Position numbers and translations under genes: made by a program. DNA of 64,000 nt from Clostridium sp. Marseille-P2415 (lineage in GTDB: Bacteria > Bacillota > Clostridia > Lachnospirales > Lachnospiraceae), in NCBI RefSeq assembly GCF_900155545.1, contig NZ_LT732525.1:443424-507423 (forward strand), read 5' to 3'. This document shows positions 2,235 through 13,536 of this stretch, one piece after another. The number at the start of each line of letters is the position of its first letter. Within the stretch, counting starts at the first letter, position 1. The notes under the pieces are model-generated. The model did no database searches. It had not been told where the DNA came from and worked only from the letters and a program-made list of their open reading frames with translations.

Positions 2235-3674
2235 ATGATAAGTTTCTTTGTTTGCCTGGCGCTGCTGATCATCGGCTTCTTGACCTACAGCAAGGTTACG
2301 GAAAAGGTTTTCGGTCCGGATGACAGAAAGCCCCCCGCTCTGACCATGACAGACGGAAGTGATTATGTACCAATGGGAACCCCCAGAATCTTTCTGATCC
2401 AGCTTTTGAACATTGCAGGTCTGGGGCCCATTTTCGGAGCTTTGGCAGGGGCCTGCTGGGGGCCAAGCGTATTTCTCTGGATCACCTTAGGCACCCTTTT
2501 AGGCGGAGGCGTCCACGACTATATGGTAGGCATGATGTCCATGCGCCATAAGGGTGCCAGCGTTTCCGAGCTTACAGGGACCTATTTGGGCAATACCATG
2601 AAGCAGGTCATGCGTGTGTTCTCTGTTGTCCTGCTGGTCCTGGTGGGGGTCAGCTTCTCGACCGGCCCTGCGAATCTGCTGGCTATGCTGACTCCGGATG
2701 TGCTTGATTCCCGTTTCTGGCTTGCTGTCGTACTGATCTACTATTTTATCGCGACTTTTGTCCCTATTGACAAGGTTATCGGTAAGATTTACCCGTTTTT
2801 TGGTATCTGTCTGATCGTTATGGCGCTGGGGGTGGGAGGTTCCATTCTTTTAAAAGGTTACCATATTCCTGAAATCACCTTATCAAACCTTCATCCGTCA
2901 GGAACTCCTATTTGGCCTACCATGTTCATATCCGTTGCATGCGGCGCTATTTCCGGTTTCCATGCGACCCAGTCTCCGCTCATGGCGCGCTGCCTCACCA
3001 ATGAAAAGGACGGCCGCACGGTGTTTTACGGAGCAATGGTGGCAGAAGGCGTAATCGCCCTGATCTGGGCGGCTGCAGGCGTTGCTTTCTACAACGGCAC
3101 CGGCGGCCTTTTGACAGCACTTGGCAACGGGCAATCCAGCGTAGTTTATGAAATCTGCTTTAAGCTTTTAGGACCGGTGGGTGCGGTCATCGCTATGATC
3201 GGAGTGATTGCCTGCCCCATTTCTTCTGCTGATACCGCTTACAGAAGCGCCAGACTGACCCTGGCCGACTGGTTCCAAATGGATCAGAAGCCCGTAAAAA
3301 ACCGGCTGATCCTTACGGTTCCGCTTCTGGCGATCGGTTCCGTACTGACTCAGTTTGATGTGCAGATCGTATGGAGGTATTTCTCCTGGAGCAACCAGAC
3401 CCTGGCCATGATCGCGCTGTGGTCCGCAAGCGTGTACTTATACCGGCGGAAATGTTTTTACTGGATCACAGCTCTTCCGGCTGCCTTTATGTCAGCGGTA
3501 TCCTGTACTTATATCCTGATTGCAAAAGAAGGATTCCGGCTTTCCACCGGCATTGCCTATCCGATCGGTATCCTGTTTGCGGCTGCCTGTCTCGGAATTT
3601 TTATTTATACCTGCGTTCTGGGTAAAGGGAAGAATCATTCCTCCCTCGCAGCAGAGGATAAACCTGCAGCATAA
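2235..3674 (+). CDS. CstA-family carbon starvation / pyruvate-type transporter (short form)
   Basis: Polytopic membrane carrier of the CstA/BtsT family, whose enteric members import pyruvate or peptides. Family signs are LLNIAGLGPIFGAL near residue 55, GGGVHDYMVGMMSMRHKG near 90, and a late block CPISSADTAYRSARL. At 479 residues it is the short clostridial form; the E. coli proteins have about 700. The ATG at 2235 is preferred over the ATG at 2229 because AGGAGG at 2222-2227 is then 7 bases away rather than 1. It follows a LytS/LytTR pair and is probably controlled by it, as in the E. coli BtsSR-BtsT system. Substrate not visible in the sequence; pyruvate is the best guess. Confidence 0.85.
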   Translation: MISFFVCLALLIIGFLTYSKVTEKVFGPDDRKPPALTMTDGSDYVPMGTPRIFLIQLLNIAGLGPIFGALAGACWGPSVFLWITLGTLLGGGVHDYMVGMMSMRHKGASVSELTGTYLGNTMKQVMRVFSVVLLVLVGVSFSTGPANLLAMLTPDVLDSRFWLAVVLIYYFIATFVPIDKVIGKIYPFFGICLIVMALGVGGSILLKGYHIPEITLSNLHPSGTPIWPTMFISVACGAISGFHATQSPLMARCLTNEKDGRTVFYGAMVAEGVIALIWAAAGVAFYNGTGGLLTALGNGQSSVVYEICFKLLGPVGAVIAMIGVIACPISSADTAYRSARLTLADWFQMDQKPVKNRLILTVPLLAIGSVLTQFDVQIVWRYFSWSNQTLAMIALWSASVYLYRRKCFYWITALPAAFMSAVSCTYILIAKEGFRLSTGIAYPIGILFAAACLGIFIYTCVLGKGKNHSSLAAEDKPAA

Positions 3675-3680
3675 TACACA

Positions 3681-3724
3681 AAGAGCTGCCCTGGCGGACC
3701 ACGGTCCGCGGGCAGCTCTTTTTC
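3681..3724 (+). terminator. Intrinsic terminator after CstA-type gene
   Basis: AAGAGCTGCCC (3681-3691) pairs with GGGCAGCTCTT (3710-3720). An inner GCGGACC/GGTCCGC stem extends the hairpin, and a TTTTT run follows. Confidence 0.85.
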
Positions 3725-3793
3725 CATATCATTTCCATCCTATGCTTTTTTGAAACCGGATGATATCTTAACAAAGCTCTAACAAACTTTTAG

Positions 3794-3920
3794 TTGCATC
3801 CGCAACTATTTCTGTGTTAAACTATAAGTAATCTGACAGAGCCTGCAGGCTCAGGCACAATTCTGTGCCGGTTATCATTCTTAAGAATCCCTATCATATT
3901 AGAAAACGGACAACAGGAGG
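3794..3920 (+). promoter_or_regulatory. Promoter and structured leader of the DUF1538 gene
   Basis: A possible promoter is TTGCAT at 3794-3799 with TAAACT at 3818-3823 (18-bp spacer). The following leader of about 100 bases holds two adjacent hairpins: the palindrome GAGCCTGCAGGCTC at 3839-3852, and GGCACA-ATTC-TGTGCC at 3854-3869. AGGAGG follows at 3915-3920. I recognise no known riboswitch class. The hairpins lack a run of T, so they are not a plain terminator. Confidence 0.4.
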
Positions 3921-3927
3921 TATATAC

Positions 3928-5469
3928 TTGAATCAAAAGTTAAAAGAAAAAATCATTGAATCCCTATCATCTGTCCTGCCCGTTACATGCATCGTGCTGG
4001 TATTGTGCATAACGATTACCCCTATGCCGCTGGATCCTCTGATGCTGTTTCTGGTAGGAGCAACTCTATTAACCGTCGGAATGGGCTTTTTTACACTGGG
4101 TGTGGATATGTCCATGATGATCATCGGAGAAAAAACGGGTGCCCATCTGGCAAAATCCAGGAAATTGCCTCTGATTGTTTTTGCATGCTTTATTATTGGT
4201 TTTATCATTACCATTGCCGAACCGGATCTCCAGGTCCTGGCCGGACAGACGCCGGCCGTGCCTGATATGGTGCTCATTCTCTCCGTGGCTGCAGGCGTAG
4301 GATTATTCCTCGCACTGGCATTTTTAAGAACACTGTTTGGCTGGAGTTTGTCCCATATTCTTATGGTTTGCTATGCCATACTCTTTGTGACCGCTTTTTT
4401 TGTTCCGAAAGAATTCCTGGCTGTGGCCTTTGACTCCGGCGGCGTTACGACCGGACCGGTCACGGTACCGTTTATCATGGCTCTGGGCGTAGGACTTTCC
4501 ACGATCGGCCGGGGCAAAAATTCAGACAGCGACAGCTTCGGGCTGGTGTCCCTCTGTTCTGTGGGACCGATCCTTTCCGTCATGATCCTGGGGCTGGCCT
4601 ATGAGTCTTCTGCAAGCAGCTATGAGCCCATGGTGATTCCATCCATCAACAATTCCCAGGACCTCTGGCTGGCATTCCAGCATAAATTTCCTGATTATGC
4701 AAAGGAAGTCTTTCTGGCGCTCCTTCCCATTCTGCTGTTCTTTCTCATTTTTCAGTTTTTCTTTCTGAGGCTAAGGAAAAGACAGGTGATTAAAATCCTG
4801 ATCGGCATGATGTACTCTTATATAGGGCTGACCCTATTCCTAACCGGAGTCAATGTTGGATTCATGCCGGCCGGCAATTACCTTGGACAGCAGCTTGCAG
4901 CCCTTCCTTACAATTGGATCATGATACCCATCGGTATGCTCATCGGTTACTTTATCGTAAAAGCGGAGCCTGCCGTACAGGTGTTAAACAAACAGGTAGA
5001 GGACATCACAGGAGGTTCCATCTCGGAAAAAACCATGATGACCGGATTATCCATTGGCATGTCCATCTCCCTCGGATTATCCATTCTAAGGGTCATGACA
5101 GGGCTTCCTCTTCTGGCTCTTCTGCTTCCCGGCTACGCACTGGCACTGGGACTGTCCTTCGTGGTCCCGCCGATATTTACGTCCATTGCATTTGATTCGG
5201 GAGGTGTGGCTTCCGGTCCCATGACAGCCACCTTTCTGCTTCCATTCGCCATGGGAGCCTGCGAAGCCCTGGGAGGAAATATTGTGACCGATGCCTTTGG
5301 AATCGTGGCCATGGTCGCCATGACCCCCCTCATCATCATTCAGCTGATCGGGGTTTCTTACAATTATAAGACAAAGAAAGCCGGCGTTCCCGCAGGCATG
5401 CCGCCGCTCGATATGGACATGGAATTTATCGAATTAGGAAAGGAGGAGGCTGATGACTTCGAATCATAA
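3928..5469 (+). CDS. DUF1538 polytopic membrane protein
   Basis: Inner-membrane protein of about 12-14 hydrophobic segments built from two homologous halves. The signature AFDSGGVTTGPVT in half one recurs as AFDSGGVASGPMT in half two. Each copy is preceded by a membrane-rich stretch and followed by a Gly/Met-rich helix, as expected of DUF1538 proteins. The start is TTG at 3928: AGGAGG at 3915-3920 is 7 bases upstream, whereas the in-frame ATG at 3865 has no ribosome site and would add 21 polar residues. The internal repeat suggests a transporter or channel fold. Biochemical role unknown. It overlaps by 17 bases a gene for a PII-like protein, suggesting that protein gates it. Confidence 0.85.
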   Translation: MNQKLKEKIIESLSSVLPVTCIVLVLCITITPMPLDPLMLFLVGATLLTVGMGFFTLGVDMSMMIIGEKTGAHLAKSRKLPLIVFACFIIGFIITIAEPDLQVLAGQTPAVPDMVLILSVAAGVGLFLALAFLRTLFGWSLSHILMVCYAILFVTAFFVPKEFLAVAFDSGGVTTGPVTVPFIMALGVGLSTIGRGKNSDSDSFGLVSLCSVGPILSVMILGLAYESSASSYEPMVIPSINNSQDLWLAFQHKFPDYAKEVFLALLPILLFFLIFQFFFLRLRKRQVIKILIGMMYSYIGLTLFLTGVNVGFMPAGNYLGQQLAALPYNWIMIPIGMLIGYFIVKAEPAVQVLNKQVEDITGGSISEKTMMTGLSIGMSISLGLSILRVMTGLPLLALLLPGYALALGLSFVVPPIFTSIAFDSGGVASGPMTATFLLPFAMGACEALGGNIVTDAFGIVAMVAMTPLIIIQLIGVSYNYKTKKAGVPAGMPPLDMDMEFIELGKEEADDFES

Positions 5470-6160
5470 AATAAACTGGATCACCGTTATCGTAGACCGG
5501 GGAAAAGGAGAAAAAGCAGCTTCTGTCTTCAAAGAACATCATCAGGAATTGCTTCTCATCATCAGAGGCCACGGGACTGCAAGCTCCGCGGTCAAAGACT
5601 GCCTGGGACTTGATGAACCGGAAAAAGACCTGGTGATCGGCATAGCCGGGAAAACAGCTTCCGAACGCTTATTAACCGCTCTCCATGACAGACTGGAGCT
5701 CGGAAAGCCGGGATACGGCATTGTGTTTACCATCCCCCTGTCAGGAATCAGCGCCGCTGCTTCCAGGCTGCTGGAAAGCCGGACAGAAGGGGAGCCGCCC
5801 ACATCTACAGATTATCTCAAGGAGGATTGCTCTATGCCAGATACGATCAGATATGAACTAATAGCTTCTGTTATCAATACGGACCTTTCAACCCCCATTA
5901 TGGAGGCTGCCAGAAATGCCGGCTGTAAGGGCGGAACGCTGGTAAAAGCGAGAGAACTGGGCACGGATACTTCAAAAAAACTTTTTGGGCTGACCCTCTC
6001 CAATGAAAAGGAAATTCTGTTAATCCTGGTCCCTGAAACCGATAAACAGGCGGTACTGAAATCCATCTGCGAAACGGTATTAAAAGAAACCGGGGAACAT
6101 GCCATTGCCTTCTCCCTTCCGGTAGATGAAGTAGCCGGTCTCAGCACACCTGTAAAATAA
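5453..6160 (+). CDS. Tandem PII-like regulatory protein
   Basis: Soluble 235-residue protein with two PII-like ferredoxin-fold units. Unit one (about residues 8-110) ends in GYGIVFTIPLSGI. Unit two (about 133-235) ends in EHAIAFSLPVDEVAGL. Both endings match the last strands of PII, where GlnB has its nucleotide-site residues. I see no T-loop tyrosine, so classical uridylylation is unlikely. The ATG at 5453 overlaps the DUF1538 stop and has AAGGAGGA just before it, so translation is probably coupled. PII proteins commonly plug or gate a partner transporter; here the partner should be DUF1538. The ligand cannot be read from the sequence. Confidence 0.8.
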   Translation: MTSNHKINWITVIVDRGKGEKAASVFKEHHQELLLIIRGHGTASSAVKDCLGLDEPEKDLVIGIAGKTASERLLTALHDRLELGKPGYGIVFTIPLSGISAAASRLLESRTEGEPPTSTDYLKEDCSMPDTIRYELIASVINTDLSTPIMEAARNAGCKGGTLVKARELGTDTSKKLFGLTLSNEKEILLILVPETDKQAVLKSICETVLKETGEHAIAFSLPVDEVAGLSTPVK

Positions 6161-6181: not shown

Positions 6182-6229
6182 TTGACATGCCGGCTCCATG
6201 CTCTTATAATGTTCTTATTACACTTGTAA
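6182..6229 (+). promoter_or_regulatory. blaI-blaR1 promoter with BlaI operator
   Basis: Consensus sigma-A promoter: TTGACA (6182-6187), 17-bp spacer, TATAAT (6205-6210). The dyad TTACA-CT-TGTAA (6218-6229) starts 7 bases after the -10 box, over the expected transcription start. TACA/TGTA is the known BlaI/MecI half-site core. The extended TATTACA..TGTAAGA matches the site before the PBP operon on both flanks. Confidence 0.85.
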
Positions 6230-6245
6230 GAACAGGAGATCATAA

Positions 6246-6629
6246 ATGAATCATCTGCCGCAAATTTCCGAAGCAGAGTATGAAGTAATGAAGATATTAT
6301 GGAGCTATGCCCCCATCAGTACCAACGAAGTGACGGACAAATTGGCAAAGACCACCGACTGGAACCCCAAGACCATTCACACGCTGCTAAAGAGACTGGT
6401 CCGGAAGGGAGCCATCACCTATCAAAAGGAAGGCCGTGTTTTTGTCTATACCCCGCTTCTGGAAGAAAAAGAATACTTAAAAAAAGAAAATGACCATTTT
6501 TTAAACCGCTTCTACAATGGCAAGATTTCCGGTATGGTAACCAGCTATATCAACAGTGACCATGTGTCAAACGAGGATCTGGCAGAACTAAGAAAACTTC
6601 TTCTTAACAGGCATGAGGAGGAAAATTGA
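6246..6629 (+). CDS. blaI: BlaI/MecI-family repressor
   Basis: Winged-helix repressor of 127 residues, the normal BlaI length. The N-terminal part (ISEAEYEVMKILW, then TNEVTDKLAK and the recognition region WNPKTIHTLLKRLVRKGAI) is typical of BlaI/MecI/CopY. The C-terminal helices from about residue 75 would form the dimer and contain the region cleaved on induction. It is the first gene of an operon with blaR1 and lies behind a BlaI-type operator, so it should repress itself. A matching operator precedes the PBP operon at 13.5 kb, indicating that this protein also represses those genes. Confidence 0.9.
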   Translation: MNHLPQISEAEYEVMKILWSYAPISTNEVTDKLAKTTDWNPKTIHTLLKRLVRKGAITYQKEGRVFVYTPLLEEKEYLKKENDHFLNRFYNGKISGMVTSYINSDHVSNEDLAELRKLLLNRHEEEN

Positions 6630-6631
6630 TT

Positions 6632-8428
6632 ATGCTCTTTTCACTTATGGCACGCCTTTCTCTAAACAGCATGGTCCTGACCGTTCTGCTTGCCGCACTC
6701 CTGCTGATCAGGAAAGTATTCAGGCATCATCTGACCGCAAGAACCCAATACAATCTTTGGTTTCTCTTCCTCTTTGTACTGACTGTCCCATTTCTGCCCT
6801 GTTCTTTTCTTTGTCCGGGACATGCTTATAAGCTGCTTGGGTATCTTGGCGGTTCCTTTCCGTCTAAGAATGCCGAAACCATAGCGTCAGCCTATAAAAC
6901 CGCAGCCGCCACCGAAAGTCTCCTTCAGGATTTTTCAGTTTCCGTAAGCCGCATGGCCCCTCCGGTCCTTCCATCTGCCGTAATCGGCATTTGGATCGCC
7001 GGTATGGCATGGATGGCCGGTTTTACCGCTCATTCCAACCGGAAAATCAGGCAGCTGAAAAAATCCTCTCTTCTCCTTCAGAATAAACAGATACGGGACT
7101 TATATACAAAATGCATGGAAGAGTCCGGAATTAAAAAAGAGATTCCTGTCTATAGCAGTGCCTATTTAAAAGCTCCCATTGCAGTTGGGTTGTGGAAGCC
7201 CTGCATCATTGTTCCCATCCACATGCTTTCGGAGCTTTCCCAAAAGGATATCCGTTATATCCTTCTCCATGAGCTTTTGCACTGCAAACACAAAGACCTT
7301 CTGGTAAACAGGCTTATGGCTCTGGCACAGATCATTTACTGGTTCCACCCGCTCGTCTGGTTTGCCCTCAATGAAATGCGCAGCGACCGGGAGATCGCCT
7401 GTGATTCATCGGTCCTGTCCCTGCTGGATCAGGACAGCTATCTGGATTATGGAAACACGCTGATTAATTTTGCAGAAAAAATCTCCCGCTTTTCCTATTC
7501 TGCAGCCGGAATAGGCGGCTCCGGAAAGGAAATAAAAAAGCGCATCTTAAACATTGCCGGTTACCGCAGGGAATCCAGGTGGTGTAAGATAAAAAGCAGA
7601 TTCCTCTTTACCGCCATTGCAGTGCTGGTACTTGGCTGTACTCCGGCGCTGTCCGCAAACGCCTATACCGGTACGGAATATGATTTTTCCGCAGAAAATG
7701 TAACAGCACTGGATTTAACCTCCTATTTCTGCGGATATAAAGGCAGTTTTGTTCTGTACGGATTAAATTCAGGGCGTTACTGCATTTATGACCGGGAAGC
7801 CGGAACAAGGAGAGTTTCCCCGGATTCCACTTACAAAATCTACAGCGCCTTAGCTGCCCTGGAAAATGGAATTATAACACCGGCCTCTTCCTCGCTTAAC
7901 TGGGACGGAACCAGATACCCTTTCGAAGCCTGGAACCATGACCAGACTCTCGGCAGTGCCATGGAGCATTCGGTCAACTGGTATTTTACTTCGCTGGATG
8001 AAAAAACCGGACTTTCCGGCTTAAAACGATACCTGGACCGCATCGGTTATGGCAACAGAGACTTATCCGGCGGCCTGGGGCGTTACTGGCTCGAATCCTC
8101 CTTAAAGATTTCACCGGTGGAACAGGTGGAGCTGCTGGCCCGTTTCTGTCAGGGTAAGCTTCCGTTCCAGCCGGAAAATATAACGGCGGTAAAGAATTCC
8201 TTATTCCTTTCTTCCGCAGACGGTGCTTCCCTGTATGGAAAAACCGGAACCGGGAACGTGGAAGGAAAAAATGTAAACGGCTGGTTCATCGGCTTTGTGG
8301 AGGCAGAGGAGGAAACCTATGTGTTTGCAACCAACATTCAGGACGAGTCTTCGGCCAATGGAAGCACAGCAGGAAAAATCACATTGAATATTCTGAATGA
8401 TAAAGGTATTTATACCCAATCACCGTAA
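6632..8428 (+). CDS. blaR1: BlaR1-type sensor: M56 metalloprotease with penicillin-binding sensor domain
   Basis: Membrane sensor-transducer. Counting from an alternative TTG at 6626, the zinc-protease motif is H215-E216-L-L-H219 with a third-ligand region DREIACD near 256. A membrane helix lies near 326-345. The extracellular penicillin-sensing domain has S401-T-Y-K404, S449-V-N451 and K539-T-G541. All active-site motifs are intact, so it should acylate with beta-lactam, activate the protease and inactivate BlaI. AGGAGG at 6616-6621 lies 4 bases before TTG 6626 (overlapping the blaI stop) and 10 before ATG 6632; I favour the ATG. At about 600 residues it matches the family. Confidence 0.9.
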   Translation: MLFSLMARLSLNSMVLTVLLAALLLIRKVFRHHLTARTQYNLWFLFLFVLTVPFLPCSFLCPGHAYKLLGYLGGSFPSKNAETIASAYKTAAATESLLQDFSVSVSRMAPPVLPSAVIGIWIAGMAWMAGFTAHSNRKIRQLKKSSLLLQNKQIRDLYTKCMEESGIKKEIPVYSSAYLKAPIAVGLWKPCIIVPIHMLSELSQKDIRYILLHELLHCKHKDLLVNRLMALAQIIYWFHPLVWFALNEMRSDREIACDSSVLSLLDQDSYLDYGNTLINFAEKISRFSYSAAGIGGSGKEIKKRILNIAGYRRESRWCKIKSRFLFTAIAVLVLGCTPALSANAYTGTEYDFSAENVTALDLTSYFCGYKGSFVLYGLNSGRYCIYDREAGTRRVSPDSTYKIYSALAALENGIITPASSSLNWDGTRYPFEAWNHDQTLGSAMEHSVNWYFTSLDEKTGLSGLKRYLDRIGYGNRDLSGGLGRYWLESSLKISPVEQVELLARFCQGKLPFQPENITAVKNSLFLSSADGASLYGKTGTGNVEGKNVNGWFIGFVEAEEETYVFATNIQDESSANGSTAGKITLNILNDKGIYTQSP

Positions 8429-8429
8429 A

Positions 8430-8477
8430 AAGGCTGCCACACCGGTTTGATTCCGCCGGTGCAGCAGCCTTCTTTTT
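8430..8477. terminator. Bidirectional terminator between blaR1 and the PBP operon
   Basis: AAGGCTGC..CACCGG pairs with CCGGTG..GCAGCCTT across an 8-10 base loop. TCTTTTTT follows on the plus strand and TTTT on the minus strand, serving both convergent units. Confidence 0.8.
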
Positions 8478-10594
8478 TATTGTTTGTTTGGAATATAGGC
8501 ATCCAATACGGCTTTGTCTTTTTTTACCACATATCCGCTCCCTCCCAAATTCTTCACATCCTCTACCATGCTGACGAGAAGAATGGGAGTCTCCAGCTTT
8601 GGATCCGTCGTAAAGACAGCGAACCAGCCGAGCTCCGTACCGCTTGTATCTCCTTTCGAGGCCTTGATCTCAGCCGTTCCCGTCTTGCCTGCAAGCTCAA
8701 TATCATTTCTGTTTGCCCCACGTCCGGTTCCGTGTTCTGAGCTGATCACTTTGCAAAGGGCAGTCCTGATCCGCTCCGTGATTTCCGGGGAAAATGCGTC
8801 CGGCAGCCAGACTTCCGGCTTTGGTTCCGGCTTGTATTGCAGATACGGTTTCATGACATTTCCATCATTGTTAAACATGGTATAAAGCGATGCCAAGTGT
8901 ATGGGATTTACCAGCATCTGGCCCTGGCCGTATCCGCTGTCAGCCAGCTGCACCTCGGTTTCGATCCGTTCTGTGTTGGAATACTGGGACTTAGCCACGG
9001 ATATGTCAAAAGGAATATCCTGATTAAAGCCCAGTTTGTCCAGACCGGCCATGAAATCGTCAGAACCGATTTTTAAGGCAGCCTTTGCAAAATAAATGTT
9101 ATCCGAATAAATAAACGCGTTCTCCAGTATGACAGGGCTGTAATCATGAAGGGTGGTAACATAGTAATTTCCCCAGCTTTCATCCTTTCTCCAGCTTAAC
9201 CCTTCATTTCCATAATCCTCATTGGGATCAATGGCTCCGGTGGAGAGTCCGATCGCCCCGGTTATGGGCTTAAAAGAAGATCCCGGGGCAAATCTCTGAC
9301 GGAACCGGTTGAACATGGGCTTTCTCTCGTCATCATTTAAAGACGCCCATTTTTCTTCCGACATCCCAAGAATAAAATCATTGTCGTCGTAAGACGGCGT
9401 GCTGACAAGGGCCAGCACCTCGCCGGTATAAGGATTCATGGCGACCGTACAGCTCTTATCATCTTTAAATGTTTGATAGATCTCGGTCTGAAGGGTGCTG
9501 TCAATGGTCAGAGTGATATCCGTTCCGTCTACCCGTGACTTTGCAGCCAGCGTTTTCTTGACCGTTCCATTGGAATCAACAATGGTGATCGTCCGCCCAT
9601 TGGTTCCTTTCAGCTCTTTCTCAAACAATGATTCCATCCCGCTTCTTCCGATGACGCTGTCTGAAAGATAATCTTCTCCCGGATGCTTTTCCAGATCCTC
9701 TGCCGTCACATTCTGGACATATCCAACCAGATGGGCCCCGCTTTCCCCCATGGGGTAACCGCGGACCTCCGTATCTGTGATCAGAACTCCGGGTATGGCC
9801 AGGAGCTCATCCTGGAGTGCTTTATTTTTAACATCCTCCTCCCGGGGCTCCTCGGAATTTAAACGAAACTCATCCACTTTTTTTATGGTCTTTAACGGTA
9901 CGAAGGAATCCTCTTTTACCCACTTGGCAGACAGCTTTTTCCCGATCCCTTCCGGGGATATCCCAAGAAGGCTCCCAAGGGTCTCCAGATCTCCGGCGGA
10001 ATCCTCACTCATTTTTCCGGGAACCAGGCCAACGGCAGAGGCCGTCCCTTTTCCTGCAAGAAGCAGTCCGTTCCGGTCAAAGATACGTCCTCTCTGCGCT
10101 TTGTCCGTTGATACCCTCACCTTGTCGGAACGCTCCAGCTCCGGAAAAATCACGCTGTCACTCCATACCATCTTATAACCGAGTTTCTTTTCCTTCTGGA
10201 ATTTCACCTGATTGTTAAAGCTTATTTCCCCTGCAGCACTTCCCAGGCTCATGCTGTAGCTGACCGTTGCTTCCCCGTCTTTTTCTTCTACCTGCCTGAT
10301 TTGGGCGGTTATACCGGAAGCTTCTATTCCCTCGAAGATATTTTTGTACCTGGTGATAAAATCCTCCTCACTGATGTTTAAATGGCTCTGCTCATTTAAC
10401 ATCCCATACATGGCCTTATAGTCCGCCCTGGAAAGGCAGTCCACGTATTCCTGGAACAACGCATCCGGCTTTTTCTTTGATAACCCGATTTTTCCCTGGA
10501 TACGGAAGAACAGGGCCGCTCCTGCCAATCCGGCGAGCAGGATAAGAAGTGTGCAAACGGTACTGAACAGAAATCTCCTTTTTCTACGTTTCAT
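8477..10594 (-). CDS. MecA-like class B penicillin-binding protein (NTF2-like N domain)
   Basis: Membrane-anchored transpeptidase of 705 residues. One N-terminal helix (about 8-30) is followed by an NTF2-like MecA_N domain (about 40-155), a PBP dimerisation domain starting near RGRIFDRNG (169), and a transpeptidase domain with catalytic S439 in SSFK, S497-D-N499 and K636-T-G638. This is the PBP2a/PBP3 layout, associated in other Firmicutes with low beta-lactam affinity; affinity here is unmeasured. It is the second gene of a two-gene operon, 12 bases after the first, with an AGGAGG site. The operon promoter bears a BlaI-type operator, so production is probably induced by beta-lactams through BlaR1. 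Confidence 0.9.
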   Translation of the reverse strand: MKRRKRRFLFSTVCTLLILLAGLAGAALFFRIQGKIGLSKKKPDALFQEYVDCLSRADYKAMYGMLNEQSHLNISEEDFITRYKNIFEGIEASGITAQIRQVEEKDGEATVSYSMSLGSAAGEISFNNQVKFQKEKKLGYKMVWSDSVIFPELERSDKVRVSTDKAQRGRIFDRNGLLLAGKGTASAVGLVPGKMSEDSAGDLETLGSLLGISPEGIGKKLSAKWVKEDSFVPLKTIKKVDEFRLNSEEPREEDVKNKALQDELLAIPGVLITDTEVRGYPMGESGAHLVGYVQNVTAEDLEKHPGEDYLSDSVIGRSGMESLFEKELKGTNGRTITIVDSNGTVKKTLAAKSRVDGTDITLTIDSTLQTEIYQTFKDDKSCTVAMNPYTGEVLALVSTPSYDDNDFILGMSEEKWASLNDDERKPMFNRFRQRFAPGSSFKPITGAIGLSTGAIDPNEDYGNEGLSWRKDESWGNYYVTTLHDYSPVILENAFIYSDNIYFAKAALKIGSDDFMAGLDKLGFNQDIPFDISVAKSQYSNTERIETEVQLADSGYGQGQMLVNPIHLASLYTMFNNDGNVMKPYLQYKPEPKPEVWLPDAFSPEITERIRTALCKVISSEHGTGRGANRNDIELAGKTGTAEIKASKGDTSGTELGWFAVFTTDPKLETPILLVSMVEDVKNLGGSGYVVKKDKAVLDAYIPNKQ

Positions 10595-10606
10595 ATAAAC
10601 CTCCTG

Positions 10607-13471
10607 TTAATCTGTCCGCAGATTATTGGATACGCTGGAAGCAGTTCCGGTAAGGATATCAGCAGGATCTTCCAGCTGAAAATAATAATTAAAAATCTTT
10701 TTTCCTATCCCGACCACATTGCCGGAGCTGTAGCCGTTGGCGACCCGTACCGCTATGGCTATCTGTGGGTCTTCAAACGGTGCATATCCTATGAAAAGTC
10801 CGTGGTTTGGCCTGTTTTTGGCTTCCTCAGCCGTTCCGGTCTTACCGGCTGCATTGATTTTTAAGTCTTTTAAGGAAGCATTGGTTTTTACCAGCTCATT
10901 CATACCCTTTGCCACGTCATTCCATATATAGTCCGGAAGTGAGACGGTGCTCTGAAGCTTTGGCGTGAAGGACTGGACTGTGTTCCCATCCGCATCTGTA
11001 ATCTTATAAAGAAGAGAAAGATCATAACTGCTCCCATGGTTGGCCAGAGTTGCGGTATACCGCGCGATCTGTGTAGTCGTATAGTTATGGGTTCCCTGTC
11101 CGATGGAAGAGGGTATGGCGAACTGATCTGTCACATGGGGTTCCGCCTCTCCGATTTCAATTCCCGTCTTTTTATCCAGATCCAGCAAACCGGCATATTC
11201 CTGAAGCTTACTTAATCCTTTCCCTTCCGAAAACGTCCCATCCGCTTCGGTTCCTAACCGGTATGTGATTTCGGACAGATAAACGTTGCAGGAATTTTTA
11301 AGGGCATCGGCACTGGAAAGAACCGGACCGTGTCCTGCCCGCTTCCAGCAGCGCAGAGCCGGCTCTACCTTATCAAATATGCCGGTACATACCACACTGG
11401 TATCCGTGCTTATGACCCCTTCGTTCAGTCCTGCGATTACCGTTACCGGCTTAAAGGTGGACCCCGGAGCCGTCAGCTGGCTGGTTGCACGGTTAAACAG
11501 GGGCAGGGATAAATCTGCCGCAAGCTTCTGATAATAGGCCGTATCCATCTGATTTGCCAGCCGGTTGTTATCATAGCCCGGATAGCTTACGCAGGCCAGC
11601 ACCTCCCCGTCCCGGGGGCTGACCACCACCGCTGACCCTGAACAGGGATTTAATGCCAGCTGGGCAGGGGTAATCTCCAGATTTTTAATTTTTCTTCGTA
11701 TGAACTGCCATGCATTCAGCTGCCCGTTTAGCAGAAGGGCATAATCCGGGTCTTCTTTTGGCAGTACCCCCTGTTCATACAGGAGTTTTTCCACATCCTC
11801 TCCGGTCAGAGAGCCTTCCTCTATCATTGCCTGAAAAATCTGTAAATCAAATTCGGGATCTTCCTTTAAATCTGCTATGATCTTCTCCTCTGCCATGCGT
11901 TCCCCATTCTCAAGTGTCACGTATTTTTCAGATGTTTCCGCCTGGCTTAAGTCGATCCAGCCATTTGCTATGCAATCGTCAAGATACTGGCGGAAGCTTT
12001 TTTCCTTCCTGTCCCAGGACCCGCTTTTTTCCGAAAGAAATTTTTCTTTCCGAACAGAATTCAGCAGATAATCGTGATAGCCTTTTAACTCACTGCTTAA
12101 GGATTCATACCCGGCACCGGAGGCATCAAAGGAATCGGACAGCTCGCGGAAAACCTGTTCTTTCTTCTGAACAAATGTTTCATAGACAGCCTTCTCCAAG
12201 TCTGTCGCATCCGTTTCCTGTAATCGCCCGGTATCGATCACATGATTCTTTAACAAGGCAAAGTACACCTCATCGGATGATATCCGGATCTGGGAGGCAT
12301 CGGCTGCTTTCGGCATGTCCGCCCTTTTGCTCTCCGTCATATTGGCAAGAAGGATACCGGCAATCTGCTGTTCCAGCATCTGATAAACTGCATTCTGTAA
12401 ATCCATATTAATGGTTAAGTAAACATCTTTCCCGGTCTGCGCTTCCCTGGTGATTTCCGGTTCCGATTTCGGGTTTCCCACTACGTCTGTGTAGAACTGT
12501 TCCATACCATCCTGGCCCCGGAGCCAGCCTTCCATGGATTTCTCGATTCCGCCCTTTCCTATGACAGACTGGTTCGTGTAAACAGAACCTTCCTGATTTC
12601 CCTTTTCCAGTTCTTCGGCAGAAATCGGCCCGGTATATCCTAATATGGAAGAAAGACTTTCTCCTCCGTAGTAAACACGGACGCTGCTTTCCTGGATATC
12701 TGCCCCCGGCAGGCTGCGTTTCTTTTCCAATACCGCCACCATGGTCTCCTCGGATACATCCGAGGCAACCAGATATGGCAGGTATTTTCGGTATGAATTC
12801 AGGGAAAGGCCGTAACGGATATTGGCAATCTGCAGGACCTCCTTTGGCGTAAGGGACTGAGGCAGTCCGTACTGCTCCTGTTCCTTTTCTGTGTAAGTTT
12901 CTCCGATCAGGAACTTTTTTTCGCCGCATAATTCTTTCATGAGTTCTTCCGCTGTTTTGGATTTTTCCGCTTCTGTCAAATCATCCACGGAGCTTTTTCC
13001 ATAGAAATCAGCTTTAAAACGGCTGAGTTTCCACCCTTCGTCGGTAAAAGCATAGTTTCCCTGTTCATCCACGGAGATGGGCAGAACCGCATTCAGCTTA
13101 TCCTCATCCCGGACCAGGCGGATCAGCTGCCAGGCAATTCCATTTAAGGATCTCTGACGTTCTTTTTTTGTCCTGTAATTCTGGGAATCCTCCAGGGTGA
13201 TATCATAGGAAAGCCGGTTTGAAGCAAGTAATTTCCCATTCCTGTCATAAATATTTCCCCGGCTTCCCGCAATTCTCCGGGTCTTCATAATGGAACTCAT
13301 AAACTCTTCCTGGTTCGTTGCCCCTTCTATGATCTGAAGACGGTATAAACGGAAAATGAGTGCCAGAAACAGGAATCCAAAAAAAATACACAGGATCGCC
13401 AGCCTTGGAATCCGTTCCAGCAATCGGAGACTTAAAAAATTCTTATCTTTTTGTAATTTATGATTGCGCAA
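10607..13471 (-). CDS. Large class B penicillin-binding protein with inserted segment
   Basis: Class B PBP of 954 residues, well above the usual 600-750. An N-terminal membrane helix (about 24-46) is followed by a PBP dimerisation region from SRGNIYDRNG (70) and a transpeptidase domain with S671-T-F-K674, S727-C-N729 and K877-T-G879. The extra length is a hydrophilic, Lys/Glu-rich segment at about 366-600, between the dimerisation and transpeptidase domains. The start is TTG at 13471, 7 bases after AAGGAG; no ATG fits as well. First gene of the BlaI-operator operon with the MecA-like PBP. Expected role: septal or lateral cross-linking under beta-lactam stress. Confidence 0.88.
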   Translation of the reverse strand: MRNHKLQKDKNFLSLRLLERIPRLAILCIFFGFLFLALIFRLYRLQIIEGATNQEEFMSSIMKTRRIAGSRGNIYDRNGKLLASNRLSYDITLEDSQNYRTKKERQRSLNGIAWQLIRLVRDEDKLNAVLPISVDEQGNYAFTDEGWKLSRFKADFYGKSSVDDLTEAEKSKTAEELMKELCGEKKFLIGETYTEKEQEQYGLPQSLTPKEVLQIANIRYGLSLNSYRKYLPYLVASDVSEETMVAVLEKKRSLPGADIQESSVRVYYGGESLSSILGYTGPISAEELEKGNQEGSVYTNQSVIGKGGIEKSMEGWLRGQDGMEQFYTDVVGNPKSEPEITREAQTGKDVYLTINMDLQNAVYQMLEQQIAGILLANMTESKRADMPKAADASQIRISSDEVYFALLKNHVIDTGRLQETDATDLEKAVYETFVQKKEQVFRELSDSFDASGAGYESLSSELKGYHDYLLNSVRKEKFLSEKSGSWDRKEKSFRQYLDDCIANGWIDLSQAETSEKYVTLENGERMAEEKIIADLKEDPEFDLQIFQAMIEEGSLTGEDVEKLLYEQGVLPKEDPDYALLLNGQLNAWQFIRRKIKNLEITPAQLALNPCSGSAVVVSPRDGEVLACVSYPGYDNNRLANQMDTAYYQKLAADLSLPLFNRATSQLTAPGSTFKPVTVIAGLNEGVISTDTSVVCTGIFDKVEPALRCWKRAGHGPVLSSADALKNSCNVYLSEITYRLGTEADGTFSEGKGLSKLQEYAGLLDLDKKTGIEIGEAEPHVTDQFAIPSSIGQGTHNYTTTQIARYTATLANHGSSYDLSLLYKITDADGNTVQSFTPKLQSTVSLPDYIWNDVAKGMNELVKTNASLKDLKINAAGKTGTAEEAKNRPNHGLFIGYAPFEDPQIAIAVRVANGYSSGNVVGIGKKIFNYYFQLEDPADILTGTASSVSNNLRTD

Positions 13472-13489
13472 AATGATTCTCCTTTAATC

Positions 13490-13536
13490 TTACATTTGTA
13501 ATATTTGATTATACACGGATTTGATTCTGCTGTAAA
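13490..13536 (-). promoter_or_regulatory. PBP operon promoter with BlaI operator
   Basis: On the minus strand TTTACA (13531-13536) and TATAAT (13508-13513) have a 17-bp spacer. The dyad TTACA-NN-TGTAA (13490-13501) begins 6 bases past the -10 box and shares TATTACA..TGTAAGA with the blaI operator. A near-identical operator in the same position in both units is good evidence for one regulon. Confidence 0.82.

Follow-up and report, generated by a model that had tools for sequence, protein, structure and literature searches.

A predicted BlaI-repressed module with two class B penicillin-binding proteins in Clostridium sp. Marseille-P2415, and related loci in Lacrimispora and other genera

In the mecA-mecR1-mecI system of staphylococci and the mecB- and mecD-mecR1-mecI systems of Macrococcus, a repressor of the BlaI/MecI family and a sensor-protease of the BlaR1/MecR1 type are found together with a class B penicillin-binding protein (PBP) that has a MecA_N domain. 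The class D beta-lactamase gene blaCDD of Clostridioides difficile is under BlaI/BlaR control as well. A blaI-blaR1 operon and a beta-lactamase output characterize the blaP-blaI-blaR1 system of Bacillus licheniformis, and for S. aureus the accessible text of PMC9834060 describes acylation of BlaR1 on its outer side and cleavage of BlaI, at Asn101-Phe102, by the BlaR1 zinc protease. A mecR1 gene is listed, without analysis, in the available part of a Clostridium tertium genome paper (PMC5647805), while no report on BlaI-controlled PBPs in the genera treated here was found among the best-ranked open-access literature matches. Here, we analyze a stretch of 64,000 nucleotides (the window; contig NZ_LT732525.1, positions 443,424 to 507,423) from the 5.25 Mb genome of Clostridium sp. 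Marseille-P2415, which has close relatives among Lacrimispora species. Positions 6182-13536 of the window hold two convergent transcription units which, because their operators are the only exact copies in the genome and relatives lend support, very probably form a BlaI-repressed, beta-lactam-inducible PBP module, i.e. a predicted variant of mecI-mecR1-mecA.

The plus-strand unit consists of blaI (6246-6629, 127 aa) and blaR1 (6626-8428, 600 aa), which overlap by four bases. On the minus strand, the gene for a 954-aa class B PBP comes first (10607-13471, with a TTG start), followed 12 bases later by the gene for a 705-aa class B PBP (8477-10594). The ends of the two units are 48 bases apart, and inside this gap lies a two-part hairpin flanked by A and T tracts (8430-8471; -26.9 kcal/mol, z -5.9 against 200 shuffles), a probable bidirectional terminator that is absent from the 15 terminator-like matches of a simple pattern scan. 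The locus thus shares with the mec systems the repressor, the sensor-protease, the MecA_N class B PBP and operators of the TTACA-NN-TGTA type. It differs from the mec divergon, e.g. mecD with its divergent genes and shared control region as described in the accessible part of PMC5341023, in having convergent operons with two operators, in the position of blaI before blaR1, and in the second, PBP2-type PBP of the output operon. With the B. licheniformis system it shares the blaI-blaR1 operon but not the output, which is here PBPs instead of a beta-lactamase. A preliminary description of this DNA had already likened the locus to mecI-mecR1-mecA, with separate convergent units and a second large PBP; the layout is as proposed, whereas the 954-aa PBP turned out not to be a constant partner.

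That description had also pointed out near-identical control regions, with 17-base spacers and TATTACA-NN-TGTAAGA four to five bases past the -10 box, and these were all found in place. In front of blaI, TTGACA (6182-6187) is separated by 17 bases from TATAAT (6205-6210), and five bases further on follows the predicted operator TATTACACTTGTAAGA (6216-6231, core 6218-6229, plus strand). The PBP operon, on the minus strand, has TTTACA (13536-13531), again a 17-base spacer, TATAAT (13513-13508) and, four bases later, the predicted operator TATTACAAATGTAAGA (13488-13503, core 13490-13501). The two promoters, agreeing with the consensus at 12 out of 12 positions (6182-6210, the best hit) and 11 out of 12 positions (13508-13536), ranked first and second among the 21 promoter-like sites of a 10 kb scan, with shuffled sequences averaging 14.1 such sites. 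The 16-base motif TATTACANNTGTAAGA has two perfect matches in the entire genome, both at this locus, and one match with a single mismatch. When up to two mismatches were allowed there was no enrichment over a reversed control (22+32 vs 37+39), and therefore only exact matches were counted. Chance was rejected as the source of the exact sites, since exact matches occur at these two places only. An 18-base mec/bla operator consensus that was not tuned on this genome, taken from the legend to figure 2 of PMC5341023, has the PBP-side site as its single exact match in the genome, again with no enrichment at up to two mismatches (84+86 vs 66+97 in the control). The B. licheniformis OP1 oligonucleotide, as given in the accessible part of PMC3305447, matches this consensus exactly, and the PBP-side operator is close to OP1. 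Two further exact places of the shorter TTACANNTGTAAKA were considered as regulon members and discarded, both being inside open frames. The only 1-mismatch copy of TATTACANNTGTAAGA (C9:2961282, L265:2283) is situated between divergent genes of the cupin and alpha/beta-hydrolase types.

Both regulatory proteins are present. BlaI has a Penicillinase_R domain (PF03965, 120.8 bits, cut-off 22.6), while it stays under the narrow NCBIfam exception models for BlaI/MecI (best 123 vs 180). It can be aligned to solved MecI and penicillinase repressors, with the helix WNPKTIHTLLKRL at residues 39-51 and the segment dWnPKTIhTLLkRL opposite dWsPKTIrTLitRL of MecI, which we take to be the winged-helix recognition segment of the MecI/BlaI structures. 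The best solved match to its DNA-binding part is 1p6r, 'Penicillinase repressor', presumably from B. licheniformis. BlaR1, which starts at a TTG (6626, overlapping the blaI stop) or possibly at an ATG (6632), combines an M56 domain with a transpeptidase-like sensor, exceeds the cut-off of the blaR1_generic model NF000326 (720 vs 400 bits) and aligns over residues 8-596 with the BlaR1 of PDB 8exs. The full set of protease and sensor motifs ascribed to it in the preliminary description is present, namely HELLH (215), EIACD (256), STYK (401), SVN (449) and KTGT (539).

By analogy with characterised relatives, from which we infer DNA binding, repressor inactivation and induction, a BlaI dimer would bind, in each of the two operons, the TTACA-NN-TGTAA dyad a few bases past the -10 box, and bound BlaI would block both promoters. 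A beta-lactam would acylate the outer sensor domain of BlaR1, the inner zinc-protease domain would inactivate BlaI, and both operons would be transcribed. The main output would be the 705-aa MecA_N-type PBP, with the 954-aa PBP2 paralogue produced from the same transcript, and both might sustain the cross-linking of peptidoglycan when the housekeeping PBPs are inhibited. That the two PBPs bind beta-lactams with lower affinity, and that there is any gain in survival, is assumed. Target replacement, the output named in the preliminary description, is likewise hypothetical.

We then compared 25 genomes of the genus, i.e. the window genome and 24 others. BlaI orthologues (at least 71% identity) were found in 23 of these and near-full-length BlaR1 orthologues (at least 55%) in 21. 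The 705-aa PBP has a full-length orthologue in 22 genomes, is in two frames in one, and has none in two, one of which is 67% complete. A dyad starts 27-28 bases upstream of blaI in all 23 genomes that have this gene, its 12-base core being exact in 22 and carrying one mismatch in the remaining one, and the arms are conserved while the two central bases vary. Before the PBP unit, a dyad with at most one mismatch in the core was found in 21 of the 23 loci fetched (exact in seven). In ten genomes blaR1 and the PBP genes are separated by 4.5-14.6 kb, and among the gaps opened, three from close relatives gave Pfam matches to RHS-repeat proteins (in L262 and L263) or to a phage integrase (in L269), with frames of similar look in L266 and L268. 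Four genomes offer single events that are suggestive only. G018 no longer has the 954-aa gene at this locus, and the promoter and operator stand there before the 705-aa PBP. In G009 a large internal deletion affects the 954-aa gene, and the operator is kept. In G011, BlaI, BlaR1 and the 705-aa PBP were not found, and the remaining 954-type PBP has no dyad before it at up to one mismatch. BlaR1 was not found in G012, which keeps BlaI with an exact dyad and has a best PBP-side dyad with two mismatches.

Relatives of the 705-aa PBP were collected from 42 loci, with genera including Lacrimispora, Hungatella, Anaerocolumna and Blautia-type genomes, all of which we take to be Lachnospiraceae. Gene order varies outside the genus. 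The Blautia-type loci L204, L205, L206 and L209 have the one-direction order operator-PBP-blaI-blaR1, two loci are divergent (L207, L212), three are convergent (L194, L208, L222), and in Anaerocolumna (L201, L202, L213) the order is operator-705-954, with the PBPs reversed. Among the 27 loci with upstream DNA, a dyad with at most one mismatch precedes the MecA-like PBP in 13 out of 14 with full-length BlaR1 and in none of the 13 without it (Fisher p 7.5e-7, ignoring relatedness). For isolates alone, with isolate or metagenome-assembled genome (MAG) status taken from record titles, the numbers are seven out of eight and none out of six. Scoring covered 400 bases before the estimated start and the first 60 after it (215 bases in L205), and the presence of BlaR1 was judged on the whole genome for 23 loci and on the locus itself for L204, L205, L206 and L209. 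In single-base shuffles (200 per locus), up to one mismatch was reached in 0 to 9.5% of cases. In one of the loci (L199) blaI-blaR1 is on another contig. The PBP of G030, a genome with blaI-blaR1 on another contig, keeps its dyad all the same.

Several of the findings weigh against a BlaI-repressed, inducible PBP module. For the operators, the blaI-side site has three mismatches to the 18-base consensus, and two BlaI proteins of C. thermocellum bind motifs of the GTCTAT and GACTAT types according to the accessible text of PMC8457756, so that a clostridial BlaI need not use a TACA/TGTA dyad. The regulons in that organism resemble the present one in being those of a clostridial BlaI, in self-regulation and in their very small size, but differ in their motifs, and no PBP output is mentioned in the same text. 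Together with the loose motif matches being no commoner than in controls, by which the motif alone is weak evidence, these points could favor the view that the shared dyad is a product of chance, or a transferred promoter element to which BlaI does not bind. We regard this as highly improbable, given that exact matches are confined to two places, that the PBP-side site is exact to a published consensus, that the arms are kept against free central bases, and that the dyad co-occurs with BlaR1 across genera.

The comparison between genera has weak points of its own. Of the 13 loci negative for BlaR1, seven come from MAGs of which the completeness is not given, so that the assembly may lack BlaR1. 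In addition, L219 and L220, with 46 and 38% identity, are distant. Since the loci are related, a tree of 48 rows was built, which gave six independent contrasts: five agree, none oppose and one shows no difference (sign p 0.0625). Corrected in this way, the association of operator and BlaR1 is supportive, not significant. The tree was started from the window, L096-L116 and L194-L223 minus L211, L217 and L221 (49 rows), and L218, with a stop inside its match, was dropped from it but kept in the table of 14 and 13 loci. Also left out were L221 for want of upstream DNA, L117 and L217, whose PBP is in two frames, L118, which has no such PBP, and L182-L193 and L211, which by length are on the same contigs as loci already included. 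The single BlaR1-positive locus without a dyad before its PBP, L198, also lacks one just upstream of blaI at up to one mismatch. A serine-recombinase-type gene is about 2 kb away from its BlaI-BlaR1 genes, and near them lies a class A beta-lactamase over the cut-off (305 vs 200) with a 1-mismatch dyad approximately 430 bases upstream, a setting compatible with a recent arrival.

Some of the contrary evidence concerns the proteins. The 705-aa PBP has the PBP4(5) model NF051842 as its best NCBIfam match, at 582 bits under a cut-off of 700, and reaches 431 bits with the MecA/PBP2a model NF000237 (cut-off 750), thereby staying under both curated cut-offs. It resembles the enterococcal PBP4/PBP5 and PBP3 (7bn9) in its closest solved chains and its best family model, and differs from PBP4/PBP5 in falling under that model's cut-off and in having its gene behind a predicted BlaI operator. 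We know of no BlaI operator in front of the enterococcal PBP4/PBP5 genes. In BlaI, Ser100-Tyr101 stands in the place of the S. aureus cleavage pair Asn101-Phe102. Finally, four Lacrimispora strains, including L. sanguinis HJ-01 and two of L. celerecrescens, are reported as susceptible to penicillin, ampicillin and imipenem in the available part of PMC12578346, in a genus where the locus is nearly universal (PBP in 23 out of 25 genomes, in one of these in two frames). The reported susceptibility counts against strong resistance, and resistance is a hypothetical output. Induction may give only a small protection or tolerance, or the PBPs may serve another purpose.

One such purpose would be a general response to cell-wall stress, in which turnover fragments of peptidoglycan release BlaI to the same extent as the antibiotic does, and the PBPs are back-up enzymes of ordinary affinity that give tolerance or repair instead of resistance. 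It would fit the susceptible congeners, the altered cleavage pair, the relationship of the 954-aa PBP to PBP2, and the binding of a peptidoglycan dipeptide to BlaI/MecI, which destabilises the complex with DNA according to the accessible part of PMC3305447. It agrees less well with a BlaR1 sensor that retains SxxK, SxN and KTG and is over a curated cut-off, with the position of the 705-aa PBP nearest to PBP3 (7bn9), PBP5, PBP4 and PBP2a chains, one of them a named low-affinity PBP, and with the finding of no dyad where BlaR1 was not found. All in all, we consider a stress response of this kind to be rather unlikely. For the BlaI-repressed, beta-lactam-inducible module, the regulatory part of the preliminary description holds up, with operators, promoter geometry, sensor and repressor all present and the relatives in agreement, in the tree at least as to direction (p 0.0625).

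Turning to the output, the 705-aa PBP has the MecA_N layout stated for one of the two PBPs from the outset, i.e. MecA_N, PBP_dimer and transpeptidase domains in Pfam, with the motifs SSFK (439), SDN (497) and KTGT (637). Its nearest solved chains are PBP3 7bn9 (434 bits), PBP5/PBP4 (approximately 400) and PBP2a (391), placing it in a PBP4(5)/PBP3/PBP2a group. A plasmid-borne mec relative was rejected, as the 490 records matched included no plasmid with an identity of at least 60%. The 954-aa PBP has PBP_dimer and transpeptidase domains, the motifs STFK (671), SCN (727) and KTGT (877), and PBP2/MrdA (TIGR03423) as its nearest model (391 bits, under the cut-off of 455). Its start position is the same in relatives, as a TTG, GTG or ATG. 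Transpeptidase family matches occur at ten places in the genome, and one of these is a 958-aa PBP2 with 36% identity to the 954-aa PBP over 965 aligned columns, inside an apparent mreC-mreD-pbp2-minC-minD-minE-rodA cluster (gene names read from translations). The 954-aa PBP was accordingly rejected as the only PBP2 and is regarded as an extra one, because the genome has this separate PBP2 in its mre/min/rodA-type cluster. In a PBP2 tree of 28 rows, the locus PBP2s of Lacrimispora and Anaerocolumna fall on one branch (support 99), apart from the other PBP2s, with several long branches in the tree. 'Locus' and 'housekeeping' are here our own labels, the housekeeping neighbors having been read for the copy in the window genome, and three 'locus' rows (L297-L299) are copies from elsewhere in their genomes. 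As judged from these sequences, the 954-aa PBP is an old PBP2 paralogue.

The 954-type gene has been lost or broken in several lineages, both in the genus and in loci outside it, which makes the MecA_N PBP the constant output. It is then conceivable that the MecA-like PBP alone matters, the 954-aa PBP being a hitchhiker with no role in the response. Beside the PBP no 954-type relative is found in Hungatella (L194, L222) or in the Blautia-type loci L204, L205 (4.4 kb only), L206 and L209, and it is gone from the G018 locus, internally deleted in G009 and in two frames in G039. The copy at the Blautia hansenii locus has an internal stop. Set against these losses, the protein is full length in 22 of the 24 genus loci read and keeps its STFK, SCN and KTGT motifs, and the Anaerocolumna versions, behind the MecA-like PBP in the other order, share a supported branch with those of Lacrimispora. 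We therefore hold a mere passenger to be doubtful.

A wider picture can be put forward only tentatively. In Lachnospiraceae, the mec-type arrangement may be an old and mostly vertically inherited wall defence, in which BlaI-BlaR1 commands either a MecA_N PBP alone (Blautia-type, Hungatella) or this PBP plus an inducible second PBP2 of the elongasome type (Lacrimispora, Anaerocolumna), with a gene order that has been rearranged around an operator and sensor that remain associated. For Lacrimispora, the arrangement could represent an inducible replacement set for the elongation machinery, allowing survival of natural beta-lactam exposure without raised standard minimum inhibitory concentrations (MICs). 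A mec-like sensor-repressor-PBP circuit, with its predicted operators placed, can now be pointed to in Lacrimispora, Hungatella, Anaerocolumna and Blautia-type genomes, which suggests that regulation of MecA_N PBPs extends beyond the staphylococci and their kin. Natural variants are at hand for testing each part, i.e. loci where the sensor was not found, the second PBP is lost or the gene order is swapped, and the discrepancy with congeners reported as penicillin-susceptible poses a testable question on what the induced PBPs are for.

The preliminary description had further stressed that no beta-lactamase is among the outputs. This is true of the operators in the window genome, where both exact sites are accounted for by the blaI and PBP units, but beta-lactamase-like genes do exist elsewhere in it. 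Pfam Beta-lactamase2 has seven matches over the cut-off, two strong (196 and 187 bits) and five weak (32-49 bits). The two strong ones (C9:2809638, L290, 196 bits; C9:2797070, L291, 187 bits) score 88 and 78 with the class A model, whose cut-off is 200, and have no hydrophobic N-terminus by eye; one of the genes adjoins a dipeptide-epimerase-like frame. No exact operator was found in 3.6 kb around each of these two genes, the five weak ones not having been examined, and one of the two has a 1-mismatch dyad about 450 bases upstream. With BlaR1 as the sole query, no class D relative was found in the window genome, in which it differs from the C. difficile blaCDD system; classes B and C were not searched for.

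For the genus as a whole, the statement is untrue because of class D-like genes with dyads. Three Lacrimispora genomes (G001, G022, G023) have an unlinked class D beta-lactamase-like gene and, beginning 48 bases upstream of its start codon, an exact dyad. These genes recall the C. difficile class D enzymes, with blaCDD as their best model, while being under the curated cut-offs (327-334 vs 600; bla_class_D_main 193-197 vs 250). A class D-like gene is also present in G010 (67% complete, BlaI not found), where an exact dyad was not found. Near the dyad-bearing gene, a second exact TTACA-NN-TGTAA dyad (L253:5441 in G001, L254:6363 in G023) is located between a tet ribosomal-protection gene (818 bits vs 775 in G001) and a GNAT acetyltransferase-type gene.

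Further dyads and sensor-like frames were seen in single genomes. G018 has an exact dyad (L258:3193) 56 bases before a 328-aa open frame (3249-4235) with no Pfam or NCBIfam match, as well as another BlaI and another BlaR1-like frame, the latter interrupted by one internal stop. In G030 (L326:783-2079), a tandem pair of 1-mismatch dyads precedes a 394-aa lipoprotein-like frame with no NCBIfam match, which is separated from blaR1-blaI by two genes. The MecA_N PBP has relatives in [Clostridium] citroniae, symbiosum, asparagiforme and clostridioforme and in one Clostridia MAG (L195, L196, L197, L200, L203) that may be constitutive, as neither a full-length BlaR1 in the genome nor a dyad was found for them. 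Blautia hansenii has, next to BlaR1 and at the locus of its MecA_N PBP, a frame (L207:6512-7261) that is similar to just the sensor domain of BlaR1, as class D beta-lactamases are, and besides the PBP2-type gene with one internal stop at L207 another full-length copy is found elsewhere in its genome. Lastly, directly upstream of blaI in the window (3865-6160) are genes for a DUF1538 membrane protein (UmpA/UmpB-like, under the cut-offs) and for a 235-aa protein carrying a PII domain at its C-terminus, a pair that adjoins blaI in 10 out of the 23 genus loci fetched, in one of these ten in pieces.

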